Below are positions 1 through 63,473 of a DNA stretch of 64,000 nt, one piece after another. Position 1 is the stretch's first letter. Each line of letters opens with the position of its first letter. The DNA is from Lasiosphaeria ovina. Its lineage: Eukaryota; Ascomycota; Sordariomycetes; Sordariales; Lasiosphaeriaceae. Position numbers and translations under genes: made by a program. The notes below the pieces were generated by a model. It had not been told where the DNA came from. It did no database searches and was given only the letters and a program-made list of their open reading frames with translations. The DNA is taken from assembly GCA_033439765.1 (NCBI GenBank), contig JAULSN010000008.1, positions 2,480,001 through 2,544,000 on the forward strand. The letters run 5' to 3'.

Positions 1-1804
1 ATCCGGGAGGGAGCGGAGTTTCCATTTTCGGGTCATCCTGTGCCCCGGTGTCTTTCGGGAGAGTTGTGTCATCTGGCGACATTTTCTTGAATTTTCTGAG
101 AACTGCTTTTCCAGCGACGAAATTGTTCCCGATCCCGTTCTCTCCTTGCTTCGCTCCGCCGACGACCATGCCAATGACTTGTCCGTCCGTGTCAAAGACA
201 CACGACCCAGAATCACCCGGTTGAGAGAAGGGGGCCTTTAGGTCCATTGAAATGACAAGCCATTCCCAGGTGATCTTTCTATCATTCCCTTTGGTATTAC
301 TGGGTTGACGTACGATAGCCTTAATATCGTTTGTCATTCCATAGGTGAGTTGCGTTTTCTGTCCACACTTTCCAACTATGAACGACGTACGTGGGTGATG
401 ATCGAAAGACCGTGACTTGTGGGCTCGTAGGGTGGCGAAGGTTTGGCCGGCGTCCATAATGTCGGGGGAAAGTACGGCTTCTCCACCAACGTAGACCTTA
501 TTGATAATAGGATTAGGGTATTTTGAAAGGTCGAGGCGGATTAGCGCCCAGTCCCGTAAGAAGCCCTGCTTTGTGACCTCGAATGGCGGCAGAAAGGCAA
601 CGTGCCCAATCGCTGGAATACCGACAAAGCGGTCGCTCGACTCGTCTAGAAAGGGGCGAATTTTCCCAAGGTAGTCCTTGTTCATCTGGAGAGATTCTAA
701 CCTTCTTTGGTCCGCAGACGTCCAGGGGCGACTGTCTGGGTCCATATCGTGTTTCATCTTCCTCCGTTCGACAACTTCCAGGAAGGGATCAAGAGTCTTT
801 TCGAACGAGTCCAGAGAGTCTTGTATGTCCCTGAACTTTCCCCTGTATCCGCGATTTACCAAACGCTGCTGCTTATCCAAGTCCCCATTGTAGGAGTCTT
901 GATCGCTGAGCCAAGCATTGTTGGATGGTACCACAACATGGCGGCAGGTAAGTCCAAAGACTTCGGATGGGCGGCCGTCGAGTTTGATGTAAAGACCCAT
1001 CGTACCGGCCGACGTTGCATGCGAGGGCTGTATCGTGTGGCCGAGAAGTGGCAGAATTGGTATGAGGTCCTTATTGATGACGCCATATTGGGGCGAGGGA
1101 GCCTGGTTCTCCCAGAATTTGCTTTCAATTGCATTCTCGAAGTCGGGTAGATTGCCACCGAAAGGCTCGCGGTGGATCTCTCTCATCTCAACTTCGATAT
1201 CTTGAATCCCTTCATTTCGTAAAAGCGATCGGCAAGCCAGGGCGGCTGGAATGGCGCCCTCCCAGTCAGTTGTGCCCGGCACAACATCGACCATCAAAAC
1301 AAGTTCCCGCCGGGGAATTTCGGCGAACATGGAAGCATATGGGGAGCTGGATCTTTTGGGCGAAACACCAATCCGTATCGGGTAGAATGCTTCCCACTCC
1401 ACATTATTCAAAGCGTCTTGAATGGACCCAACCAGCTTGTTCGACCATATGGACACCAGAGGATGCTTCCCGATTATATTGAACACCTTCGAGTTATCCG
1501 GAACTTCGAAGTCCTCCGTGGCGTTCAAACCGGTAAAATCGGGAAACTCGTATGAGCTGGTTCTCGCCAGCAAGTGCCCCTGAACGCCATCGTAGTAGTG
1601 GGTTCGCTCGTACTCGGAAGGTCGTGCGGGATCCATCACCTTCTTCGGCGAACACGGCGTGCACGAGTCTGTCGGGGAGCTCACTGACTCGAATCGCAAG
1701 CGCTTAGTGGGTGAGCTCGTTGAACGCGATTCGGATGAAGATCCAGAAGAATCGGACGAGCTGGTTGATGGCGCGTTGCGCTTCGATGGGGAACGGCTAG
1801 CCAT
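1..1804 (-). CDS. Trypsin-like serine peptidase-fold protein, 3' end off window
   Basis: An uninterrupted reading frame of about 601 codons starts with ATG at 1804 and runs off the left edge. I checked the frame at several points. It contains the three parts expected of a chymotrypsin-fold peptidase: LTCRHVV (candidate His, about residue 289), DWALIRLDL (candidate Asp, about 418) and GDSGSCVFD (candidate Ser, about 538). The first 56 residues are Ser-rich and low in complexity; the disrupted twin at 9057-10614 begins at the equivalent of residue 57. No signal peptide is evident, so it is probably intracellular. The roughly 280 residues before the His motif match no family I recognise, and the substrate is unknown. 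The peptidase assignment rests on the ordered triad; activity is inferred. Confidence 0.75.
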   Translation of the reverse strand, partial: MASRSPSKRNAPSTSSSDSSGSSSESRSTSSPTKRLRFESVSSPTDSCTPCSPKKVMDPARPSEYERTHYYDGVQGHLLARTSSYEFPDFTGLNATEDFEVPDNSKVFNIIGKHPLVSIWSNKLVGSIQDALNNVEWEAFYPIRIGVSPKRSSSPYASMFAEIPRRELVLMVDVVPGTTDWEGAIPAALACRSLLRNEGIQDIEVEMREIHREPFGGNLPDFENAIESKFWENQAPSPQYGVINKDLIPILPLLGHTIQPSHATSAGTMGLYIKLDGRPSEVFGLTCRHVVVPSNNAWLSDQDSYNGDLDKQQRLVNRGYRGKFRDIQDSLDSFEKTLDPFLEVVERRKMKHDMDPDSRPWTSADQRRLESLQMNKDYLGKIRPFLDESSDRFVGIPAIGHVAFLPPFEVTKQGFLRDWALIRLDLSKYPNPIINKVYVGGEAVLSPDIMDAGQTFATLRAHKSRSFDHHPRTSFIVGKCGQKTQLTYGMTNDIKAIVRQPSNTKGNDRKITWEWLVISMDLKAPFSQPGDSGSCVFDTDGQVIGMVVGGAKQGENGIGNNFVAGKAVLRKFKKMSPDDTTLPKDTGAQDDPKMETPLPPG

Positions 1805-2758
1805 TTTAAGGAGGAAATTCTTTTTTCTCAATCAGCAGCCAGACTACACGGTTTTTCCGTCCCAAGAAACCCAAAAACCTAAAGCCTAGGCCAACAGATT
1901 AGAAAAATATGAAAGGGGAACTTAGCCGAAATTTTTGGTAGACTTCGTCTGTTAGCATAAGTTAAGCGTTTGATCGAAACCGTGATTTTGCGCGATGATG
2001 TTTACAAAAACTTGGGGGGACAATGGCGAATGCGCTCCAGGAGCTTGGGGCAAGAGTGGGGATTGCCGCGTGTCAAGGTTCGAGCTCGAGCCGTCAGACC
2101 GTCTGCTAAACCTTCCACTCGGCACTCCCGTGCTGGCCCGGCCATCTCCGTTCAAGTCGGTTCTTTCCCAGCCAGAGATAAGAATCATGAGCCCCTATTT
2201 CTCCACATAGTCTCTAACCTTAACCAACAACCTTCCATCTACGCTGGTGCCTAACTTTTGCTGACTCTCACAAGCACCACCGCTACCAAGCAAGCAAGTC
2301 TCCAGGCGTTGCCATTAACCTTCCTCCATGTTAGTAAGTCACCTGCTTGACCTTGGTTTACTTTGCACCTACGAGAACCTTCACTACCGCGAATGCGATC
2401 ACGATTTCCACAAGCCGAAGGTATCAGATAGCAGGAAACAATCCCCCATATTCCAACCACAGAGAAGTGCCCGCACTTGCTAAATAGAGAATAAAGTAAA
2501 TTACCTGACCTCCTGGCCTCCTGGCCTCCTGATTTCGTAACGCACCGCGCCCAGGTTGCCCGCTGCCCCTTCTGCCTGAATGTTTTCGCTACCGCGACCG
2601 CTATCGTGTGCCAGTTCAGGAGTAGCGGATGCCCGTGGGCCAATTAATTATCTCGGCCGCGGAACACACCGTCTGTCGCTGAATTTAACTGTGGGGGAGT
2701 GGTGGCAACTGTTTAAACTACGGAGAAAGAACATGCCAAGAGGTGAGGGAGGAGCCAA
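1805..2758. other. Intergenic, no supported gene
   Basis: I see no convincing coding exon here. The 5' flank of the minus-strand peptidase gene lies in it. Several short intron-like signals (for example a GTTAGTAAGT at about 2330) leave open that upstream exons of the multi-exon gene at 3679-5817 start here. Confidence 0.4.
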
Positions 2759-3260
2759 ATGACGCCAAGCAATGGTCACGCGCAAAGTGTCAAGCGCAAA
2801 GCGCCAAGCCATAGTCCTGTTGATATATGGCATTGGGCCGTCAGGATTTGGGAAGGGGCATCTGGAAGCTCAACTAGCACGTTCCCATGTTTGGGGGGTC
2901 GGATTTTGTCTCCCTTCCCTTTGTTTCTTCATCCAGACATTGAGCCTCGTATGCCACCCCTGTCTCCAAACTTCGCTACACAACAATCAGGTGATCTTGG
3001 TCCCCGACTAGATTTGCTAATATATTTCTGTATTATAGTTCATTTTGAACCCCAAACCTCGGCCCTGGCCCCTCAGCTGCACCGCCCGCCGCCCCTGAAA
3101 AGCGCAAGGGTAACAAACGCCTGCGTCATGACGGAAGTCTATTTCGGTACCATTCATCCCCTGGGGGGCTCATTTGACCGATGCCAGTCAGAGTAACCAT
3201 ATAGCACGTCTGGGCTGCCAAAGCCAACAAGGAAGTCGGGGGGGAGGCAGCCCTTGTGGG
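2759..3260 (+). pseudogene. Degenerate partial copy of the 5' half of the micro-exon gene
   Basis: Blocks here align in order with 3460-4660. The GCATCTGGAAG block at 2859 matches about 3489. A branch/acceptor block ending in TATAG at about 3040, followed by TTCATTTTGAACCC, matches the acceptor and first exon at 3679. A stretch reading like GCCCCTGAAAAGCGCAAGGG, then GGAAGTCTATTT, matches the end of the Pro-Ala exon and its donor at 4589. The His/Gln tract, zinc-knuckle exon and Pro-Ala repeat are missing. An open frame of 145 codons across it is probably fortuitous. Confidence 0.5.
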
Positions 3261-3678
3261 CCGCTGGACAAAGTTCAGATCCACAGAGTAATGATATAAT
3301 TACGCCCTCAGGAACTTTGGTACACGCCACCCGTCAATCATCTACAGGGATGTAAATGTGATGCTACAAGCTTTCCTTCTGGTAATGTGACAAGAGAAAG
3401 TGCCTGCGGACGAGCTGGGGTAGGCACCGTGTAGTGACAGCCAAAGGCTCCTGCCTGTAGCATTGAGCCATTGGCATATGGGCAGGAGCATCTGGAAGTG
3501 TCAATGGCAAGCTAGGTACCTAGGTAGTTTATCGACAGAAAACTGGGCGGATTTTCTCCTCTTCTTTCTTCTTTCTTCTTTCTCCAGCCAGCGCCCCAAG
3601 TCTTGTACGGCACCCTGCCTCCCAACTCCAGGTACCCAATGTTCTACTAGATTTGCTAACTCCTTTTCTGTACACTAG

Positions 3679-3854
3679 TCACTTTCGAACCCAGACCGCC
3701 GACGCCGTCCCCCTTGCTTCCACGTAAGGTTCCCTCTCCTTGTGATCAAACGTGGCCTGGCTCGGGGAGAACCAGAGCTTGAGGTGCTAACAACTATTGG
3801 TCTCTCGCGCAGACACACCACCACCACCACCACCACCACCACCACCACCACCAA

Positions 3855-3885
<31 letters not shown>

Positions 3886-3889
3886 AGCG

Positions 3890-3922
<33 letters not shown>

Positions 3923-5817
3923 CCAACAGCAGCAGCAGCACCAACAGCAGCAGCAGCAGCAGCAGCAGCACCAACAGCAGCAGCAGCAGCAGCACCAACA
4001 ACAGCAGCAGTGTGCCGCCGTTAGTTTACAATGCTTCCTCCTCCAGACTAAGCGGTTGTGATTCTAACCTACTGTGTCTTAGATGGTCCGTTGCTTTCAC
4101 TGCGGTGGCTTCGGCCACAAGGTGGCCCAATGCCGCTTCGTAAGCTCCCATCACCCCTCTCCTCACCAAAAACCTTTGTTCTTCGAGTTAGCTAATAGTT
4201 ACTTGCCCTGCCATCTTAGATGCCCATTGCTGTAAGCAATATCCTGAAGCCTACTGTTCTACACTCCGCTTCGTCCCCTTCCAACCGAGCACCCTGCCTC
4301 CCTACATCGTTGTTCTCCAGCAGCTATTACCGTATCAGCTTGATTGAGCCCCATGACTAGCGCTTCGTTACATATTACAATTCGTTCCGCCGTTTCTGAT
4401 AGACATGCTAGGTGCAGAACACCGCCGCGCCCGCGCCCGCACCCGCGCCCGCGCCCGCACCCGCGCCCGCGCCCGCACCCGCGCCCGCGCCCGCACCCGC
4501 GCCCGCGCCCGCACCCGCGCCCGCTGCCGCGCCCGCCGCAGCTGCTGCCGCCCCTGGCAAGGGCAGGGGCAAGCGCCCCTTCAACGGCGTAAGTCTATTT
4601 ATGTTTAATCAGGCCCATTCATCCCCTAGGAGGCTCAGTTGACTGACACCGGCCAAAGAGCAGCAACAATGCCCATCCGGGCAAGAAACCGGTGAGTTCC
4701 ACCTCTCTATAATATTTCCTTGCCACCCAGCTCACATTCGCTCTGCCACAGAAGCAAACCCAAGTCTATCCGGCCTTCTCTCAACTCAACATACACAAGA
4801 TCAATTAGCTGATGAATCACTCAGGCAGCAAGACGACCCTCGCCGACCCCGCCTCCCAAGGCGAAGTATCCGGTAAGTTCAAGTTGTTATCCAGATTCTC
4901 CCTATCATTCAAGTCGTCATGCCATCTCCCGGCCAATTTGCTGACCTCCTTTATAGCCAAACTCTCGTCAAGTTAGTATCGTCCTCCACCGTCCTTCCTC
5001 ATACCAGCTTTCGCATCACTTGCTGGAGTGTGGACGTACATTGGGGTTATATGCTGACATGTCTTTGTGTCTAGGCATTAGAGGAGCATGCCCGGGCTCT
5101 GGGAGCCAAAGCCGAGGTAAGCTTACCTTGTGCTCTTGAGTCTGTAGATACTTGCTAACTTCTTTTAGATCTCCGCCGCAAGATACGAAGTAAGTACCTA
5201 CCCACCCATTTATTGAAGCATTTAATCCAGTTTCGCGATGCTAACATTTGTACAGGAACTTCGTAATGCCGCCGATGTACGTACGCCTACACAACCAAGC
5301 CATCTCACCTTCCAGGTTGCTAATTCAGGTATTTACAAGGCTGAGTATGCGGTGCTCAGCGTATGTGATCCACCCCCTGTTACACAAACTATGACCTAGC
5401 TGACTGTTTTCTCTGTCTTGTGTAGGCCATCATCATCGAGCAAGTGGTAAGCCTTACTCACTTTCTTTACATACCAGTCGGAGATAGCTAATTTATATTT
5501 CAGAAGTACGAGAAGATGGCCGCAGCGGCCAAGCCCATCCTCCCCGCCCCTAGCGGCGCCGTAAGTGTTCCCGACTAAACCTTTTTTATATTTTCTTTCT
5601 GCATTTTATCCTAACTTTATTTGATGTAGAAGGTCGATCTCGTCGCCATGAAGGCGGCAATATTCTCTTCCGAAGTAAGTCTGCCTCTCTCTTCATTTTT
5701 TTTCCCGCCGTTAACTTTAATTAAAACCAGGAGCCTGAAGCACCTGCCGCCGAAGGCGCACCTGCCGCCGAGGACACACCTGCCGCCGAGGACACACCTG
5801 CCGCCGCCGCAACTTAG
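3679..5817 (+). CDS. Micro-exon gene: His/Gln-rich, CCHC knuckle, Pro-Ala repeat, coiled coil
   Basis: I read 17 exons: 3679-3723, 3813-4019, 4083-4139, 4220-4231, 4412-4588, 4659-4691, 4752-4763, 4825-4872, 4957-4971, 5075-5116, 5169-5189, 5256-5276, 5340-5360, 5426-5446, 5504-5560, 5630-5674 and 5731-5817. Every exon is a multiple of 3 and every intron is phase 0, giving 306 residues and a TAG stop. Most introns have GTAAG/GTTAG-type donors, a CTAAC or CTGAC-like branch and an AG acceptor. The order is: basic Arg-rich start; poly-His then poly-Gln; a CCHC knuckle (CFHCGGFGHKVAQC, exon 3); a Pro-Ala repeat ending in GKGRGKRPFNG; an Arg/Pro/Lys segment; a coiled-coil-like stretch from ALEEHAR to KYEKM; and an acidic Pro-Ala tail with EDTPAA repeats. 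Four successive exons are 21 nt, one heptad each. The 5' end is unresolved: no ATG in frame is seen before exon 3, so translation may start upstream or at the Met of exon 3. I do not recognise the family. RNA or nucleic-acid binding is a guess from the knuckle and basic segments. Confidence 0.65.
3813..4019 (+). repeat. CAC/CAG trinucleotide tract coding poly-His/poly-Gln
   Basis: A run of CAC codons passes directly into CAG/CAA codons with scattered CAC and one CGG. It fills almost the whole 69-codon second exon of the micro-exon gene. The other two forward frames are also open here (Thr/Ser and Pro/Ala), so frame choice rests on the neighbouring phase-0 exons and the zinc knuckle. Confidence 0.9.
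4426..4540 (+). repeat. 18-bp GC-rich minisatellite coding Pro-Ala
   Basis: Tandem units of about 18 bp (CCCGCGCCCGCGCCCGCA) encode alternating Pro-Ala inside exon 5 of the micro-exon gene. Unit number is likely to vary between strains. Confidence 0.85.
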
Positions 5818-5988
5818 TCCCTTTTGTCTGTTTATTGTGCGCTTGAGCCCCTTTTTTTTCTTGTTTTTTTTGGGGGTGGAGAAAAGGGTTGGGGGGGAGA
5901 GGGGGGAGGGGGGTTGACACTAATTTGAGACGTTCACTACCTATTTTTATCAACGATACAACTTTTCATTTCAAGATTATACGTCGTT

Positions 5989-6807
5989 GTCTCCTATTGT
6001 GATCTTATGCTTTGCATATTTTTATCAAAAGCTTTTTCTTTCCTTTTATGTTCGGATTCTAATCTCTTTTTCTTCCAGACGCGACGGAAAGACGGGGCAA
6101 TGCTAAAATATACGGTCTGAAGAGGTCGAACATAGCTGCTTTGCTAGCATGATTCGCTCTAACGATCATATCTCAACTTGGTTGAGACTGAGCCACCCTG
6201 ATAGTCTTGGGGCTTCATCGTTAACGAAGCCCCGGACGAAGTCTTGTGATGTTTCAAATTGGCCAGGTTCCCCCTCTTAAATATATTGCATTTTGAAGTT
6301 TTGATGTTAATCCCTATCTTTTCCAGGGACGACGACTCTAAATCTTCTAGAAAGTTTCGATCGGAGCAACGTTCGAGGAGAACGGGCCCCGTTCAGGTCT
6401 GTGTTTTGTTTTACTTCACCACGTTTCCCCCCTCTAGACAGACGACTCCCTATTAATGTTTGGATGCTAATCGCTTTGTTCTCCAGTCCCTTGTAAAATT
6501 AGGATTGCTTGGCAGGGTTAGTTGGGGCTGGTTGAGAGGAGGAAGCCCCCCCAGGTCTGTGTTTCGTTCCGATCGATCATGTTGCCGCCCATTAAATAGA
6601 ATCGGTTTTGACGTTTCGATGCTGATCATCTTCTTCTCCAGGAATCACTACCTGCTTATCATGTTATCGAGCGTCAAATTGGGGCCGCACTGAGAGGAGG
6701 GAGCCCCCCGAGGTCTATGTTCTGGTTCGATTGACCAAGCTGGCGCGCCCATGTATAAAGAAAACACGGAAGTTAGCACCAAAACATCACAGGCGGCTTC
6801 TGTCTAG
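5989..6807 (+). other. Tandem intron-like/exon-like modules with GTCT donors and GC hairpins
   Basis: Intron-like blocks begin with GTCT at 5989, 6241, 6397, 6555 and 6713. The 6397, 6555 and 6713 starts are exactly 158 bp apart. The first four blocks end in a GATGCTAATC-like branch followed by TTCTCCAG/TTCCAG (ends at 6078, 6326, 6486, 6641); a weaker acceptor lies at 6807. The exon-like blocks between them are 162, 70, 68 and 71 bp, so no frame is kept, and they hold stops in the frames tried. Each ends near a stem: 6209-6216 with 6226-6233 (GGGGCTTC/GAAGCCCC), 6380-6394 (GAACGGG C CCCGTTC), 6524-6529 with 6544-6549, and 6681-6685 with 6703-6707. It may be a spliced non-coding transcript, a 3' extension of the gene upstream, or a decayed tandem duplication. 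Confidence 0.55.
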
Positions 6808-7155
6808 GTAACTACTGGGGATGGCGATGATGTATATAGTCTTAAGGAGGTTGCGCTTTGCTTTGGCATCGCGCTCTCTGATGACCAACATCTCAAGTGA
6901 GACCCGAGCCCCCGTAATAATCGAGTCATTTGGCATTCTAGAGACTCTTGGGAATAATTAGATAGCAAACTATCAATTTAGTGGATGCCAGTTATTACCT
7001 AGCCTAGACGATGATTGTAGTGGCTAGTTAAAGGCATTACTTGTTTCGTCCCATCCTGCCTCTATAAATATTAACCATGTCGCCATCCCCATCGTTATCA
7101 TACCAAGCTTGGTTGACTCCAACATTTCCGTGAATCTTTATATAGACATGAGCTT
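6808..7155. other. Intergenic, no gene seen
   Basis: No open frame or RNA gene is supported. It is the 3' flank of the minus-strand secreted-protein gene that ends at 7156. Confidence 0.4.
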
Positions 7156-8334
7156 TCAGCTAAGATATAGAAAACAGAGACCACCCAATGCAGCCGTGCT
7201 GAGGAGTCCCCAGTCCGGACCCCGGCCTCGGGCAGCCGATATAGATCTCGCGCTATACGTCCCCTCGCTATCCGACACCCACGTAAAGTCGGACCCGTTT
7301 CCGAACGTGAACTTGGGCAGTTCATGGTCTGCTGGGTTGGCCAGGGCGATGGCGGAATACTCAAACACAAAGTTGTTCGGCTCCAGGCTAGGGTTGTCGC
7401 CGTCCTGCCGCCTGCCGCTGAAGAGGAGGGTCACGTTTCCGAGAGTCGAGCTGAATGTCAGCTTCGCCGTGGCCGTGGTGTTGGTGAAATTGAGCGCGTA
7501 TGTGAATGCCGTCTTGGAGGACCTGGTATACTGTTAGCGAGGACTGTGGTCGAGGTCAGCGAGCTAGACGGACCAGGAATTCGCGAAGTGTATGTCGTCG
7601 GCGCAATCCTTGCCCTGCGTGGCGTCAGAGTAGTTCCACGGCCGCTGGAAGCTAAAGTCGTTGTAGTCGCTGGTCCCGTTGTAGAGTGCCGTCTGCTCGT
7701 CGCCCTGGACGGCATAGAAAGGCCCGGGGTCGTCCTCGGCTAAGGGAACGCCACTGACGTGTGAGACGGAGGCCGCGGTAATGTTTAGCATGGGCTTCGT
7801 GATGTAGGCCCGCGGAGAGAATATGGAGCTCCCGCACGGCTTGCCGTCCTTGTAACACAGGTAGTACGTGGTGGCGAGATACAGGTTGTAGATGGCGTCG
7901 TGGGTGCATCCGACGGCGCTGGAGCAGATGTTACCCGGACCTCCAAAAGGGCGGACAAAAGCCTGAATGCGGTTTTCAACCGGAGGACTTGATATCGACG
8001 TGCTGCCGTGGCGGTCTAACTGGAAGAAGAAGGGGTTCGTGTCCCACGGCGGGTTGACGCCTATGCGCAGGCCGGCGTTGGCCAGGTCGCTGAAATAATA
8101 GACGCCGCCGTCGCCGCAGACGGTCGCGTTGGGGTGGGAGATGGCGGGTGTGTTGTGGACGAAGGAGCCCGACATGGTCCCGTTGTAGAAGATGAACTGG
8201 GTGCCGCCATCGTCGAGGGTGGGGTTCAGCGAGGCTGATAGGCGACAAAGGGCGCAGAGGAGCAGGCCTATTACGGGCAAGTGGACGGTTGCCGCGGATC
8301 GACCTGTGCCCAGAGCTAGACCCGGCATCGCCAT
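7156..8334 (-). CDS. Secreted, probably GPI-anchored protein of unknown function
   Basis: There are two exons, 8334-7574 and 7522-7156, with a 51-nt intron (donor GTCCGT, branch GCTAAC, acceptor CCAG), giving 375 residues. Without splicing the frame stops at 7564; splicing joins it to a frame that continues the same kind of sequence. The N-terminus is a signal peptide or anchor (hydrophobic around GLLLCALCRL). The body is rich in NxS/T sites and has several Cys (CSSAVGC, CYKDGKPC). The last residues form a small plus hydrophobic segment (GLLSTAALGGLCFLYL) like a GPI-attachment signal. I do not recognise a domain. A cell-wall or surface role is inferred from topology only. Confidence 0.75.
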
Positions 8335-9056: not shown

Positions 9057-10614
9057 TCAGACCAGGCCCGGTCTACACCCTGTCTCCCGTTCAATATCAT
9101 CAAAGATGTATTGTATCGGTGTGACGAAGGAGATGTCGAAACCGTTCCTGTAGCCATAGTACCCTGGGGGGTCTGTAGTCTTTACTCCGCCGACCACCAT
9201 GCCCATGACTTGCCCCTTTATGTCAAAGACACACGACCCAGAGTCGCCCTTCAGACAGAACGATTTATCTTCTGTCAATGGAACGACAAGCCATTCCCAA
9301 GTAGTTTTCCTCTCCTTATTCTCAACGCCACGGGAGTGTCGCACGATGGCCTTGATTTCGTTTGTCATTCCAAATGTTATTTGCCTTTTGTGCCCAAACT
9401 TCGCAACCTTGATCGATTCGCGTGGGTGGTGATCGAAAGCTAGCGACTCTGGGGCTTATAAGGTGGCGAAGTTCTCGGTAGGGTCCATAATATCCGAGAG
9501 AAGTACGAGGGGTATACCGATGAAGACTTTATTGATAACAGGATCAGGGTACTTTGAGAGATCAAGACGGATTAGCGCCCAGTCCCGTAAAAAGCCCTGC
9601 TTTGAGACCTCTAGTGGCGGCATAAAGGCAACATGCCCAATCGCCGAAATGCCGATAAAGCGGTCGTCTGAGTCGTCCAGAAAGGGGCAAATCTTGCTAA
9701 GGTACTCCTTATTCATCTGGAGAGATTCTAATCTCCCTTGGTCCTCAGGTCCCCAAACGCGGGTCCATATCGTATTTCATCCTTTTATATTCAGCCATTC
9801 GCATCAGGGGATCGAGAGTCTGTTCGGACGAGTGTAGGGAGTCTCGGATTTGTTTCAGCAATCCCTTATATCCACGATTTACCAGATGCTGTTGGTTATC
9901 ACCGTTGGACGGCGCCACAACATGGCGGCATGTTAGCCCATAAACTTCGGATGGGCGGCCGTCAAGTTTGATGTAAAGGCCCATCGTACCGGCCGTCGTT
10001 GCATGCGAGGGCTGTATCGTGTGGCCGAGAAGTGGTAGTATAGGTAGGAGCTTCTGGTTGAACGTGTCAGACAACCATGAGGGAGCCTGGTTCTCCCAGA
10101 ATTTGCTTTCCAGCGCATTCTCGAACTCGGCTGTATTGCTGCCGTATGGTTCGCGGTGGATCTCCCTCATCTCAACCTCAATATCGTAGATCCCTTGGTT
10201 CCGTAAAAGCGACCGGCAAGCCAGGGCAATTGGGATAGCGCGCTCCCAGTTAGTTGTATCTGGCACAACATCGACCATCAAAACAAGTTCCCGCTCAGGA
10301 AGTTTGGGGTAGTCGGTAAGGATGTATCTTTTAGGTGAAACACCAATCCGAATCGGGTAGAATGCTTGCCATTCCACATTGCTCAAGGCGTCTTGAATGG
10401 ACCCAGCCAGCCTATCCGACCATATGGCTACCAGAGGATACTTCCCGATTGTATTGAAGACCTTCGAGTAATCCGGACCTCTGTTGTAGGGCCACTCGGA
10501 GCTCATTCCGGAAAAATCGGGAAACTCGTATGAGCTGGTTCTCGCCAGCAAGTGCCCCTGAACGCCATCGTAGTAGCGCGTCCTCTCGTACTCGGAAAGC
10601 CGCGTAGGCTCCAT
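9057..10614 (-). pseudogene. Disrupted twin of the trypsin-like peptidase gene at 1-1804
   Basis: The frame starts at ATG 10614 (MEPTRLSEYE, matching residue 57 of the intact copy) and follows that copy closely through the LTCRHVV motif. Around 9745-9760 a net loss of 8 bp relative to the intact copy shifts the frame and gives a stop after DMDPRLGT. The homologous frame resumes (MNKEYLSKIC...DWALIRLDL) until a TAA at 9456 where the intact copy has an Arg codon. It then reads on through GDSGSCVFD to a stop at 9057. One frameshift and one nonsense codon make a full-length product impossible unless spliced; I see no splice sites that would repair both. The C-terminus differs from copy 1. Confidence 0.8.
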
Positions 10615-17718: not shown

Positions 17719-20120
17719 TCAGATCAGGATAGAAACGGCCGTGAAGCCCGGGTCGAGCACCATGTACGGGATGCTGCCCTTGTCCATGCCCGTGCTGTTG
17801 AAGAAGAAAGTCTTGCGCAGGCCCTGGAGGCCGACGTAGAGGGCCTCGCTGGCCTCCTTGACCTTCTGGTCGGCCGGCGCCTTCTTGTACTTGTACACAT
17901 TCCACTGGCTCACGGCGTAGTTCATCAGGCTGCGCTCGTCGTCGACCTTGAAGCTGAGCAGCCAGGGCAGCTGGGCGGCCAGCATCCACTGGCGCTGGCG
18001 GTTGATGGGCAGCGCCGCCACGAGGTCCGACTCCTTTAACGCCTTGAGCTGCTCGAGGCTCGTCGGCGGGGCCTGGCACAGCGCCGGCGGCTTGGCGGCC
18101 ACGAACGCCTGGTAGAAGTTCTGCAGGTAGTTGACGGCCGAGTGGAACGGCGACGCGATGTGGATGCACATGGTGACGGCGTCTACGAGCTGGTCGGCCG
18201 TCTTGATGTCAGGGAAGGACGGCATGAACGCCGACGTCTGCACCTCTTTCGCCCAGTCCTGGAGGTACTTGTCACCGGCCACGCTCTCGTCCGTCGGGTA
18301 CGACAGGAGCAGCATTGACTTGGTGTAGGCGCGGAGCACTCCCCATAGGGCTAGCACGTTCTTGGCAAATGTGTAGTTGCGGTAGCGCGGGTGGTCGAGG
18401 CCGTCGAGGGTGTTGGGGAATCCCCGGCGCTTGAGGTCGTTTGGCACGTAGCTCCCCACAAAGTCGTACGTGTCGTAGGCCTCGCGTATGAAGCTGTACG
18501 CCTGCGCCGGGCTGACGCCCACAATGTCGGTAATGACCTGCGGCACAAGACTGGCGCGAGCCGCAGCATTGAGCGACAGCGTCTTGTACCAGTGCGGCGA
18601 AAGCAGCCGGTACACGGGGTGGTCCATGGGGATGCTGCGGTTCGTCGCCACGATGACGGCCTCCTCGACAAAGTGCGACAGCGTCAAGTGCACCACCAGC
18701 TCGTGCCGCAGCCAGTCTGTCACTTGTGCGGCTGTCTTGGCGTACCTCCAGGGCCAGTCGTCCTTCTCACCGCTGGTCGGGTCGGTCGGCTTCATGCGCG
18801 AGTTGAAGATGGTGACCGACTTGTCGATACTGCCCTTGTGGTCGATGCAGATTGCAACTGGGTGGAGCTTTCCGTCGTCGTAGAGCTGGAACAGGCTGAC
18901 AGCGCCCACAGCCCAGTTGTCGTCGCTCGAGGGTTGCTTGCTGTGCAGCACGGCTGCCGGATCCGACACGCCGGCGGCCCTGCGGAGGTAGCTGCCGTCC
19001 TGAACAAAAAGCGACGCCGGGTCCGCCTTTGCAAGGGCGTCGACCCATTTCTGGTAGCCGCCGGCCTTGGCCGCCTTTGAGAAGTCGGCGATCCATCCTG
19101 GGGAAGCCTTGGTGATGGTGGTCGGGTTGGTGCCGGTGAACTGCTGGTCTGCGTAACGTCGGTCGCTGAACCAGTCGTCGAGCAATCCTATGTTGCCGCC
19201 CCCTGAGATGTCGGTACCGAACTTTCGGTGGAACTTGTTGTAGTCGACAACGTCCTGGATCTTGAGCCCCTTTTCCGGTTCGCCTCCAAAGGCAGCGGCA
19301 CGGGCCTTTTCGAGAAGCCATTGTTTGGTGCGTCCCAGAAAGCCATCCTCGTCGGGGATGAGCTTCGTAACAATGATTTGGGTCTGGACTACGCCGATCT
19401 TGTCGAAGAGGTCAAACTGGCTGAAGGTCTGGTCTGCGGGTATATGCTCAAGATGTGGCGGGTAGTCTGCAAATGTTCCGTCGGCATTGGTAGGATAAGC
19501 CGTGAACCGGTACATCTTCTTCTGCTCCTCTAGACTGATGTAGCGAGGCAGAGTTGACTCGATTCCCAGGACATCGAACAGTGACGCAAAACTGTCCTTA
19601 CGTGTAAGCGGACGCTCGCGGCCGGTTTCAAGGGCAAGTAGAGCCAAGTCTAAGCCACCGCCGGGGCGGCCCAAGGCAACAATGTCACGGGCAATCTTTG
19701 GTGGCCTTTCTGGTCGCACTAAAGTCTCGGGGTAACTCACGTCTGCTCAATTCGAGAATAGGCCTGCGTCAGGGCAACCTGGGTGCCCATATATGACCCC
19801 TCTCTAATATTTCCCTCAGGCTCATTCACAAGCGAGGGGTTCTTGGGATCGACGGTGGCGTAGAGCTTGAGTTTGAGCAACTCATTGTCGAAGACTCCTG
19901 GGTCGAAAGACGGGAGGGGAGCTTGGTCGACGCCTCCTGGAGTTACCTTTGCGAAGTACTCTTTCTTGGACGGATGCTTGAGGATGTCATTTGGGCGTGG
20001 GAGGGACGCGGCCACATCTGGAGGAGGGATGGGCAGGCTGGGATCCAAGGATTTTCGCTGATACTTCAGCAATAAGTTGACTGCCCAGGCGGGCAATAGG
20101 GAGGCAAGGGATCTAGGCAT
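17719..20120 (-). CDS. Lipoxygenase (fungal linoleate lipoxygenase family)
   Basis: Two exons (20120-19741 and 19591-17719) with a 149-nt intron (GTGAGT...GACAG) give 750 residues. The start is the first ATG (MPRSLASLLPAW); upstream in-frame codons begin only with TTG. The second exon carries the metal ligands of the family: HELVVHLTLSHF (two His), HSAVNYLQNF (third His region) and a C-terminal Ile that ends the chain (VSILI). HPVYRLLSPHW and the long C-terminal helical body are also typical. The enzyme adds O2 to polyunsaturated fatty acids to make hydroperoxides. Whether the metal is Fe or Mn cannot be told by eye. No clear signal peptide is seen, so an intracellular location is more likely than secretion. 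The exact intron 3' site is inferred from frame. Confidence 0.9.
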
Positions 20121-61744: not shown

Positions 61745-63473
61745 CTAACGCATTTTCTTCGTTGTGAGCTTTATGCGTGCCTGAAAAGCCTCGATTGCTT
61801 GTCGACTAACGTTCGCCATCGGCTCCCAAGTATCATCTTCTGGTCCATAGTTTTTCCAACGGATAAGGTACTCGTGAGTCTTGCCATAACCTCTTTGGTC
61901 CCAATATCTTCTCGACATCATAGATATCTTCACCTTCGAGCTCGCTGCCATCTGGCGGCGCTGTCATTTCGCCATAATATGGTTCTAGCAATGAGACCGG
62001 AAATACATTGTGAATCTTTGCCCCAGGCATTTTAAGTGCGTATGCCAGTCCTGCGTTGCCGACTCGTTTCTCAATCTGAAAGGGGCCACAATACTTTGGT
62101 GAGAGCTTCTTGCTAGGTCCAATCTGCTTAATGTTTTTCGTTGACAACATTACCCATTGGTCTTGCTCGAATTGATAGTCCATACGCTTCTGGTTATGCC
62201 ACTTTGCGTACTTTTCGTGGGCAAGCTGCAAAGCCGTAGCGGCATCGTCGCGGTGCTTCTGCAATATTGTAATGCGCTCAATTGCGGTAATGGACATTGA
62301 CGACTTGGGTTGTAAATCGGGGTCGAGCGGGGTCTTCGGCTCGTACCCGTAGAGAAGGAATGCGGGCGATTTCCCGGTTACGGAATGAGGCGCGGTGTTA
62401 TAAACCCATGCTGCAAGGAAGAGGCGATCCAGCCAATCGGTCTGCGCGATGGAGCAATAGATTCTTAGATATTGCTCGAGGGTCTGGTTCTGACGTTCCG
62501 TCTGTCCGTCTGTCTGTGGGTGGTACGCTGTGCTAAGTCGACGCTTCATCTCCAAGAGCACGCAACATGTTTCCCAAAACTTGCTTGTAAAAAGTACTCC
62601 TCGGTCTGAAACAATGCCGTCTGGGATTCCAAACTGTGTAATAATACGTTGGAAAAAGATCGTTGCGAAGCTATCACTTGTTAAGCTCGACGTTGTTGGA
62701 ATATATAATGCGTACTTCGTAAAACGATCAATAATAACCAAAATTGCGTCGTATGCTTTGCCGTGGCGGTTGCGTGTTCGTGGTAGGCTCGTAATAAAGT
62801 CGAGCGAGATCTCTTGCCAAGGCCGAATCGGCGTGGGTAATTCTCCAAGTAAGCCGTACGGTTTGTGGCGACGAGTCTTCGCTTCTTGGCACTTTAAGCA
62901 CCTCTTAACGTAGTCGCTGACATCTCGTGGCATGGAGTCCCAGTAGTAGCAACGAGCTAGGATCTTCAGCGTTTTGTTGCCTCCAAAGTGACCCGCAGTT
63001 GTTGCATCGTGCGCAAGGCATAATATCTCCTTTCTTGCCTCGAGGTTGTCAGGAACGTATATCCGCTTCTTAAAGCAAAGCAGGCCGTTAATGGTTTCCC
63101 AGACCAGACCTTTCTTAATCTTCTTGTTGCGAGCTCGCCACGTGCCTTTTTTAATAAATGGGTCTGCCGCTTGCAATTGGACTAAGTGCTCTGTAAGAGT
63201 TGTTTGTGAGATCGAGCCAATAATTCGTGATTGTTGCGCTTCTTGGAATCGAAGGAGGAGAGATGGTAGAAGCTCTCTCGTCGCGTCCTCGCGATGATCA
63301 TGCCAAAGTTCTGGTCGACGAGATAAACCATCCGCGGGGTTCCTTACACCTGGCTGGTGCCTAATATTGAAGTTGAACGGAGCCAGCTCCTGTACCCAGC
63401 GAATCTCGCGTGCGTTTAGCTTTTTCTTCGTAGCGAGGTATTGGTGGTTCAGATGATCCGTCAAAACGTCCAC
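61745..63473 (-). mobile_element. Ty3/gypsy chromovirus pol fragment: RNase H end, integrase, chromodomain
   Basis: An open minus frame from 63473 has the end of RNase H (FNFNIRHQPGVRNPADGLSRR), the integrase H2C2 zinc finger (HDATTAGHFGG...CLKCQEAK), and the D,D,E core in LDFITSLP, SDRGVLFTSKFWE and HPQTDGQTERQNQTLEQYLR. A GPY-like region (LSPKYCGPFQIEKRVG) follows. A frame change at about 61890 separates it from a chromodomain in another frame ([18 protein letters not shown]), which stops at 61745. Reverse transcriptase and gag are absent; the left part of the RNase H is cut at about 63484. Confidence 0.85.

Follow-up and report, generated by a model that had tools for sequence, protein, structure and literature searches.

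A candidate gene of phase-0 micro-exons in the fungus Lasiosphaeria ovina

The window analysed here is a stretch of 64,000 nucleotides (nt) from the genome of Lasiosphaeria ovina, a fungus of a wood-dwelling type (C31:2480001–2544000; the genome comprises 51.7 Mb in 32 contigs). Between nt 3679 and 5817 of its plus strand lies a predicted gene with 17 exons, separated by GT..AG introns and joined into one open frame of 306 codons that ends in a TAG stop at nt 5815–5817. It is rather likely that this is a real, single-copy and lineage-restricted gene for a protein of RNA-binding type, spliced mainly constitutively and grown by exonization. The likelier translation start is at nt 4083 in exon 3, which would give a product of 222 residues from 15 coding exons. 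The lengths of the 15 exons taken as coding are all divisible by three, and eight of these exons are 36 nt or shorter; exons 11 to 14 are four in a row of exactly 21 nt.

Exon layout and splice signals

The 17 exon lengths given in a preliminary description of the locus were laid out from nt 3679, with GT required after and AG before each exon. Six chains were found. Two of them reach nt 5817, one of which is open and the other has an internal stop. The lengths, the GT..AG borders and the common frame of the 17 exons are borne out by this chain search, and the exons are as follows.

3679–3723, +: exon 1, 45 nt, probably 5′ untranslated; chain search and splice signals; no ATG, codon score prefers another frame
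3813–4019, +: exon 2, 207 nt, CAC/CAG repeat, probably 5′ untranslated; chain search and splice signals; no ATG
4083–4139, +: exon 3, carrying the putative start codon and the zinc knuckle C-x2-C-x4-H-x4-C; opens with the modelled leader's first AUG, sub-threshold zf-CCHC_6
4220–4231, +: exon 4, 12-nt micro-exon (MPIA); branch GCTAAT, acceptor TAG, donor GTAAGC
4412–4588, +: exon 5, Ala-Pro repeat and beginning of the basic region; chain search and splice signals
4659–4691, +: exon 6, 33 nt; chain search and splice signals
4752–4763, +: exon 7, 12 nt, doubtful because of the weak donor GTCTAT; passed over by the strict intron search
4825–4872, +: exon 8, 48 nt, basic and proline-containing; chain search and splice signals
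4957–4971, +: exon 9, 15-nt micro-exon (PNSRQ); chain search, splice signals, strict intron search
5075–5116, +: exon 10, 42 nt (14 residues); chain search, splice signals, strict intron search
5169–5189, +: exon 11, 21 nt (seven residues); chain search, splice signals, strict intron search, genome-wide 21-nt-exon pattern
5256–5276, +: exon 12, 21 nt; chain search, splice signals, strict intron search
5340–5360, +: exon 13, 21 nt; chain search, splice signals, strict intron search
5426–5446, +: exon 14, 21 nt; chain search, splice signals, strict intron search, genome-wide 21-nt-exon pattern
5504–5560, +: exon 15, 57 nt; chain search, splice signals, strict intron search
5630–5674, +: exon 16, 45 nt; chain search and splice signals
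5731–5817, +: exon 17, acidic tail and stop codon; chain search and splice signals

The introns are 52–180 nt long. The donor is GTAAGT or GTAAGC in 9 of the 16, and CTRAY branch sites lie 15–29 nt upstream of the exon in 14 of the 16. Four actin-family introns of the same genome (four read of seven picked gaps) have the donors GTAAGC, GTGCGT, GTGCGT and GTGAGT and the branch sites GCTAAC, GCTAAC, GCTGAC and TCTGAC; judged by these signals, their splice-site style is the same as that of the micro-exon gene.

A dynamic-programming search was made for the chain with the most introns that stays open, with any phase allowed. A strict intron was defined by a GTRNGY or GTNAGT donor, a CTRAY branch, an HAG acceptor and a length of 45–200 nt. 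In nt 3641–5830 the search returned 13 introns, all in phase 0. Eleven of them belong to the original model, one is intron 2 with another donor, and the remaining one absorbs exon 7 together with the introns on both sides of it (6 and 7); the chain does not include introns 1 and 16. The reverse strand gave 2 introns, 100 dinucleotide shuffles gave 0–2, and 110 other overlapping segments of the window (nt 7200 onward, both strands) gave 0–4. The maximum was 5 among 240 segments, many of them overlapping each other, from 53 other genome loci (60 loci minus seven that overlap the exon array). The 12 rows that reach 5 introns have mixed phases and come from two genes only, one actin-related and one with zinc knuckles. 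Since two such genes reach 5 introns, the strict search does detect ordinary multi-intron genes.

The claim that all introns are in phase 0 has meaning for 14 introns; for exons 1 and 2 the coding status is not confirmed, as they have no ATG and a frame other than the modelled one gives a higher codon score in both. With every exon a multiple of three and one frame throughout, any exon could be removed without a frameshift, as the preliminary description had proposed. Intron 12 (nt 5277–5339; 63 nt) contains no in-frame stop, so that a transcript retaining it would encode 21 more residues with the frame kept.

Reading frame, start codon and product

In the spliced product, frame 0 is free of stops, whereas frames 1 and 2 are interrupted by stops in the last third. 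Codon usage was trained on seven long open reading frames (ORFs) of the window (3299 codons), with each stop costing 6. For exons 6–16 (336 nt) the frame-0 score is +12.3; the other two forward frames give −46.6 and −50.9, and the reverse strand −15.3, −7.1 and −66.3. The frame-0 score exceeds that of all 500 base shuffles (best shuffle, 4.4). The introns have a negative codon score in every frame, −0.70 to −0.77 per codon.

ATG is missing from exons 1 and 2 and from nt 3540–3631. Along the modelled leader, AUG first occurs as the opening codon of exon 3, in the context GCCGCC|ATGG; because of this and of the lack of ATG in exons 1 and 2, a product of 222 residues is preferred over the 306 residues first proposed, which are not supported. 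A start further upstream was also considered. Among the ATGs of nt 3001–4082, a single one, ATG 3478, could be joined to exon 1, 2 or 3 in phase 0; the link uses the weak donor GTACAC, skips exon 1 and is not favoured. The modelled leader assumes removal of nt 3632–3678 despite a weak donor. Two candidate features of the leader are listed below.

3552–3585, +: pyrimidine tract of 34 nt, possible transcript start-site region; longest of five tracts of at least 14 nt in nt 1801–7000
3632–3678, +: possible additional intron of the leader, with the weak donor GTACCC, the branch GCTAAC and the acceptor TAG

The following course of expression is proposed. The pre-mRNA would contain about 16 ordinary short fungal introns, each excised by splice-site pairing across the intron. 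The mature mRNA would carry the CAC/CAG-rich leader of exons 1 and 2 and be translated from the AUG at nt 4083 into a basic protein of 222 residues, with an N-terminal CCHC knuckle, an Ala-Pro spacer, a lysine/arginine-rich stretch, an alanine-rich stretch and an acidic tail. This protein would bind RNA or single-stranded nucleic acid.

The predicted product has an isoelectric point of 9.3, with charges of +3 on the knuckle, +12 on the basic stretch and −8 on the tail. By inspection, the exon 3 translation contains the exact CCHC motif C-x2-C-x4-H-x4-C. A search of the genome with the PF00098 profile at E 0.001 gave 22 places, none of them in the window. Pfam returned six families at E 1, none reaching its cut-off, the best E-value being that of ANKRD13_C on the Gln repeat. 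The product from nt 4083 begins MVRCFHCGGFGH, by eye unlike a signal peptide, and since no signal peptide is evident, nucleic-acid binding would probably take place in the nucleus or cytosol. The alanine-rich stretch looks helical. The coiled coil of the preliminary description is unsupported: over the 52 residues of exons 10–15 the heptad periodicity is not significant (p 0.096), nor is the helical moment (p 0.67 at 100 degrees and 0.35 at 102.9).

Copies, origin and alternative explanations

No paralogue was found in the genome by DNA, pattern and protein searches, except a decayed fragment just upstream. The DNA of nt 4400–5820 matched only itself and five short pieces within the exon 5 repeat; nt 5800–7150 gave the self-match only; nt 1860–3820 matched itself and a duplicate on contig C6 that ends at nt 2911. 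Within nt 3821–4399, between two of these DNA queries, exon 3 was covered by the protein query. The protein search of the genome returned four pieces of the micro-exon gene and, with E-values between 0.4 and 1.8, three other places. A strict 21-nt-exon pattern matched 35 places in the genome, compared with 22 for the pattern read backwards. Two distinct matches within 300 nt occur genome-wide only at the micro-exon gene; the other close pair, on contig C3, is a single exon matched twice. The upstream fragment is the following.

2830–3215, +: decayed partial copy of nt 3460–4682, with 62% and 65% identity in two pieces

The fragment lacks about 820 nt, a gap that starts with the end of exon 1 and takes in most of exon 5, and the donor of intron 5 is not conserved in it. 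The locus was therefore once tandemly duplicated.

The introns and the small exons of the gene are unlike one another. Tandem duplication as the source of the 21-nt exons was rejected, as no residual similarity exceeds that of shuffles: the observed best score was reached by 269 of 500 shuffles for the six exon-intron units and by 331 of 500 for the six 21-nt blocks. Likeness among the introns, among the exon-intron units and among the 21-nt blocks does not exceed that of shuffled sequence, so the exon duplication envisaged earlier finds no support. We suggest that new small exons opened within one or a few old phase-0 introns. A new exon inside a phase-0 intron must be open and a multiple of three, because otherwise the frame is lost. 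Such growth fits the uniform phase 0 and the absence of any trace of exon duplication, and it would best account for the all-phase-0 layout.

Splicing of the gene is most likely constitutive in the main. Fungi are thought to use intron definition, in which splice sites are paired across introns (PMC2219887, available text), and exon skipping is described as comparatively low in fungi (PMC6142364, available text). The tiny exons would thus mostly be joined routinely, since the introns are short and have good signals.

Several points weigh against this account of the locus. The codon fit of exons 6–16 is 0.11 per codon, compared with 0.325 in the training ORFs. Frame 0 is best in 10 of the 17 single exons (10 of the 15 taken as coding), and exons 5, 8, 9, 12 and 17 score higher in another frame; these single-exon scores are noisy because the exons are tiny. 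The CCHC knuckle of the preliminary description stands as an exact motif by inspection and falls below the Pfam cut-off, the zf-CCHC_6 match reaching 17.5 bits where 22 are required. If nt 3632–3678 are kept in the leader, an upstream ATG at nt 3639 comes first and opens a frame of three codons followed by a stop. Two protein-database searches gave no homologue at E 10 or better among proteins of 0.55–1.75 times the query length that share 5-residue words; one scored the 7997 candidates richest in such words, many of them simple repeats, and the other 35 candidates. The same protein database contains the manganese lipoxygenase of Lasiosphaeria miniovina and those of many other Sordariales. The gene may accordingly be an orphan, or a relative may exist that is annotated at a different length or not annotated at all. 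In line with the preliminary description, which could name no fungal family of this build, no named family matched in the searches made.

Regulated skipping of the symmetric 12-, 15-, 21- and 33-nt exons, giving protein variants in which each 21-nt skip removes seven residues, is an unlikely alternative. Frame-safe skipping is possible, given that all 15 putative coding exons are multiples of three with four consecutive ones of 21 nt. A regulated micro-exon has been reported in Trichoderma virens (PMC11121469, available text), and some exon skipping does occur in fungi: it made up 12 of the 193 events in Ustilago maydis, and Cryptococcus shows numerous cases (PMC2219887). Mostly strong splice signals and short introns nevertheless favour constitutive splicing, as does the comparatively low level of exon skipping in fungi (PMC6142364), and neither a significant heptad pattern nor a second copy was found. 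A bolder version is unlikely: that this is the first fungal gene built mainly of micro-exons, young and lineage-restricted, with interchangeable phase-0 mini-modules and seven-residue exons regulated to set the length of the C-terminal stretch. No fungal gene of this kind appeared in the titles and abstract openings that searches of an open-licence library listed.

We regard it as improbable that the transcript is a highly spliced non-coding RNA whose open frame comes partly from repeats and composition. The absence of homologues in protein searches would fit such an RNA, as would the simple repeats that make up exon 2 and much of exon 5, the several single exons that are not coding-like in frame 0, and the intron-like tandem units that go on 3′ of the stop codon. 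Yet the 336 nt of exons 6–16 are open in frame 0 with a coding score above all 500 shuffles, the CCHC motif is exact, all exon lengths are divisible by three, and an Rfam scan of nt 1800–7200 found no family at its gathering score. Two sub-threshold Rfam matches were taken as chance: the bacterial small RNA isrG scored 40.1 bits on the CAG repeat, where 100 are required, and a CRISPR repeat model reached 25.6 bits against a cut-off of 39.

Quite improbable is a decaying or never-functional locus in which the splice chain is a relic and the upstream copy marks a family being lost. That copy is truncated, its intron-5 donor is not conserved and other copies were not found, but the main copy has neither frameshift nor stop across 17 exons and few weak splice sites. 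Recent multiplication of the introns as introner-like elements within one gene, suggested by the dense introns at a single locus, is unsupported and was rejected as highly improbable, since the best intron-pair score, 21, is no higher than the median of the best scores from 200 shuffles, with which it coincides, and nt 4400–5820 have no genomic matches besides the five in the exon 5 repeat, so that the introns are neither mutually similar beyond shuffles nor dispersed in the genome.

Neighbouring sequences and known systems

Three tandem units at an exact spacing of 158 nt lie at nt 6375–6746, 3′ of the stop codon. Each has a donor-like start, GTCTRTG, and the first two end in an acceptor-like GCTRAT...CTCCAG. 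On either side of the exon array there is a copy of one stretch that carries a gene on the minus strand (nt 154–1636 and 9185–10614, −), the two being 75.8% identical in DNA. The duplicate on contig C6 covers nt 682–1398 and 1903–2911 at 92–97% identity, with its second piece at C6:130034–131072 and parts of the gene that precedes this piece included; the sequence after nt 2911 is unrelated, so the duplicate ends before the array. The manganese lipoxygenase encoded at nt 17719–19740 (−) is 97% identical to that of L. miniovina (the main piece agrees in 609 of 626 residues), and identity to the next named species is at most 78% among the best 120 of 424 matches. Judged by this one protein, the source is most likely a Lasiosphaeria (Sordariales) near L. 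miniovina. A long ORF at nt 61833–63473 (−) resembles, by eye, the integrase region of a Ty3/gypsy retrotransposon.

Flatworms are known to have genes that consist mainly of micro-exons. The micro-exon genes of schistosomes form families, encode secreted variable proteins and undergo demonstrated exon skipping. The Lasiosphaeria gene likewise holds much of its coding sequence in tiny symmetric exons that could be removed without a frameshift. It differs in that one copy was found, that a zinc knuckle stands at the N-terminus and that inspection by eye shows no evident signal peptide. The parasite logic of variable secreted proteins, with which the preliminary description had compared it, is therefore unsupported here. 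Proteins of the zf-CCHC type in Pfam share the exact C-x2-C-x4-H-x4-C, whereas here a lone knuckle stands at the extreme N-terminus with a sub-threshold score and the rest is without a family match.

The bicycle genes, a large putative effector family of aphids, are likewise composed mainly of micro-exons, with an average of about 17 that we take to mean exons; their internal exons are almost all in phase 2, in contrast to phase 0 in the Lasiosphaeria gene (PMC9168663, available text). Another case is Xlr2 of T. virens, a Zn2Cys6 factor with a regulated micro-exon, likewise in a filamentous ascomycete. There the micro-exon is single, whereas the present gene consists mainly of micro-exons. According to the available text of the same report, functional micro-exons were previously undescribed in filamentous fungi, and fungal micro-exons, little studied, had formerly been tested only in Schizosaccharomyces pombe (PMC11121469). 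Fungal introner-like elements, of which it is reported that lineages gain many introns at once, resemble the present case in the number of introns; those of the micro-exon gene are without similarity to each other beyond shuffles or to the rest of the genome.

The gene may belong to a class overlooked by annotation, because no predicted protein matched it though the database has a close relative's neighbouring protein. If true, 14 phase-0 introns in 222 codons would make a clean test of the intron-defined splicing of exons of 12–21 nt, and the same gene would test growth by exonization inside phase-0 introns.
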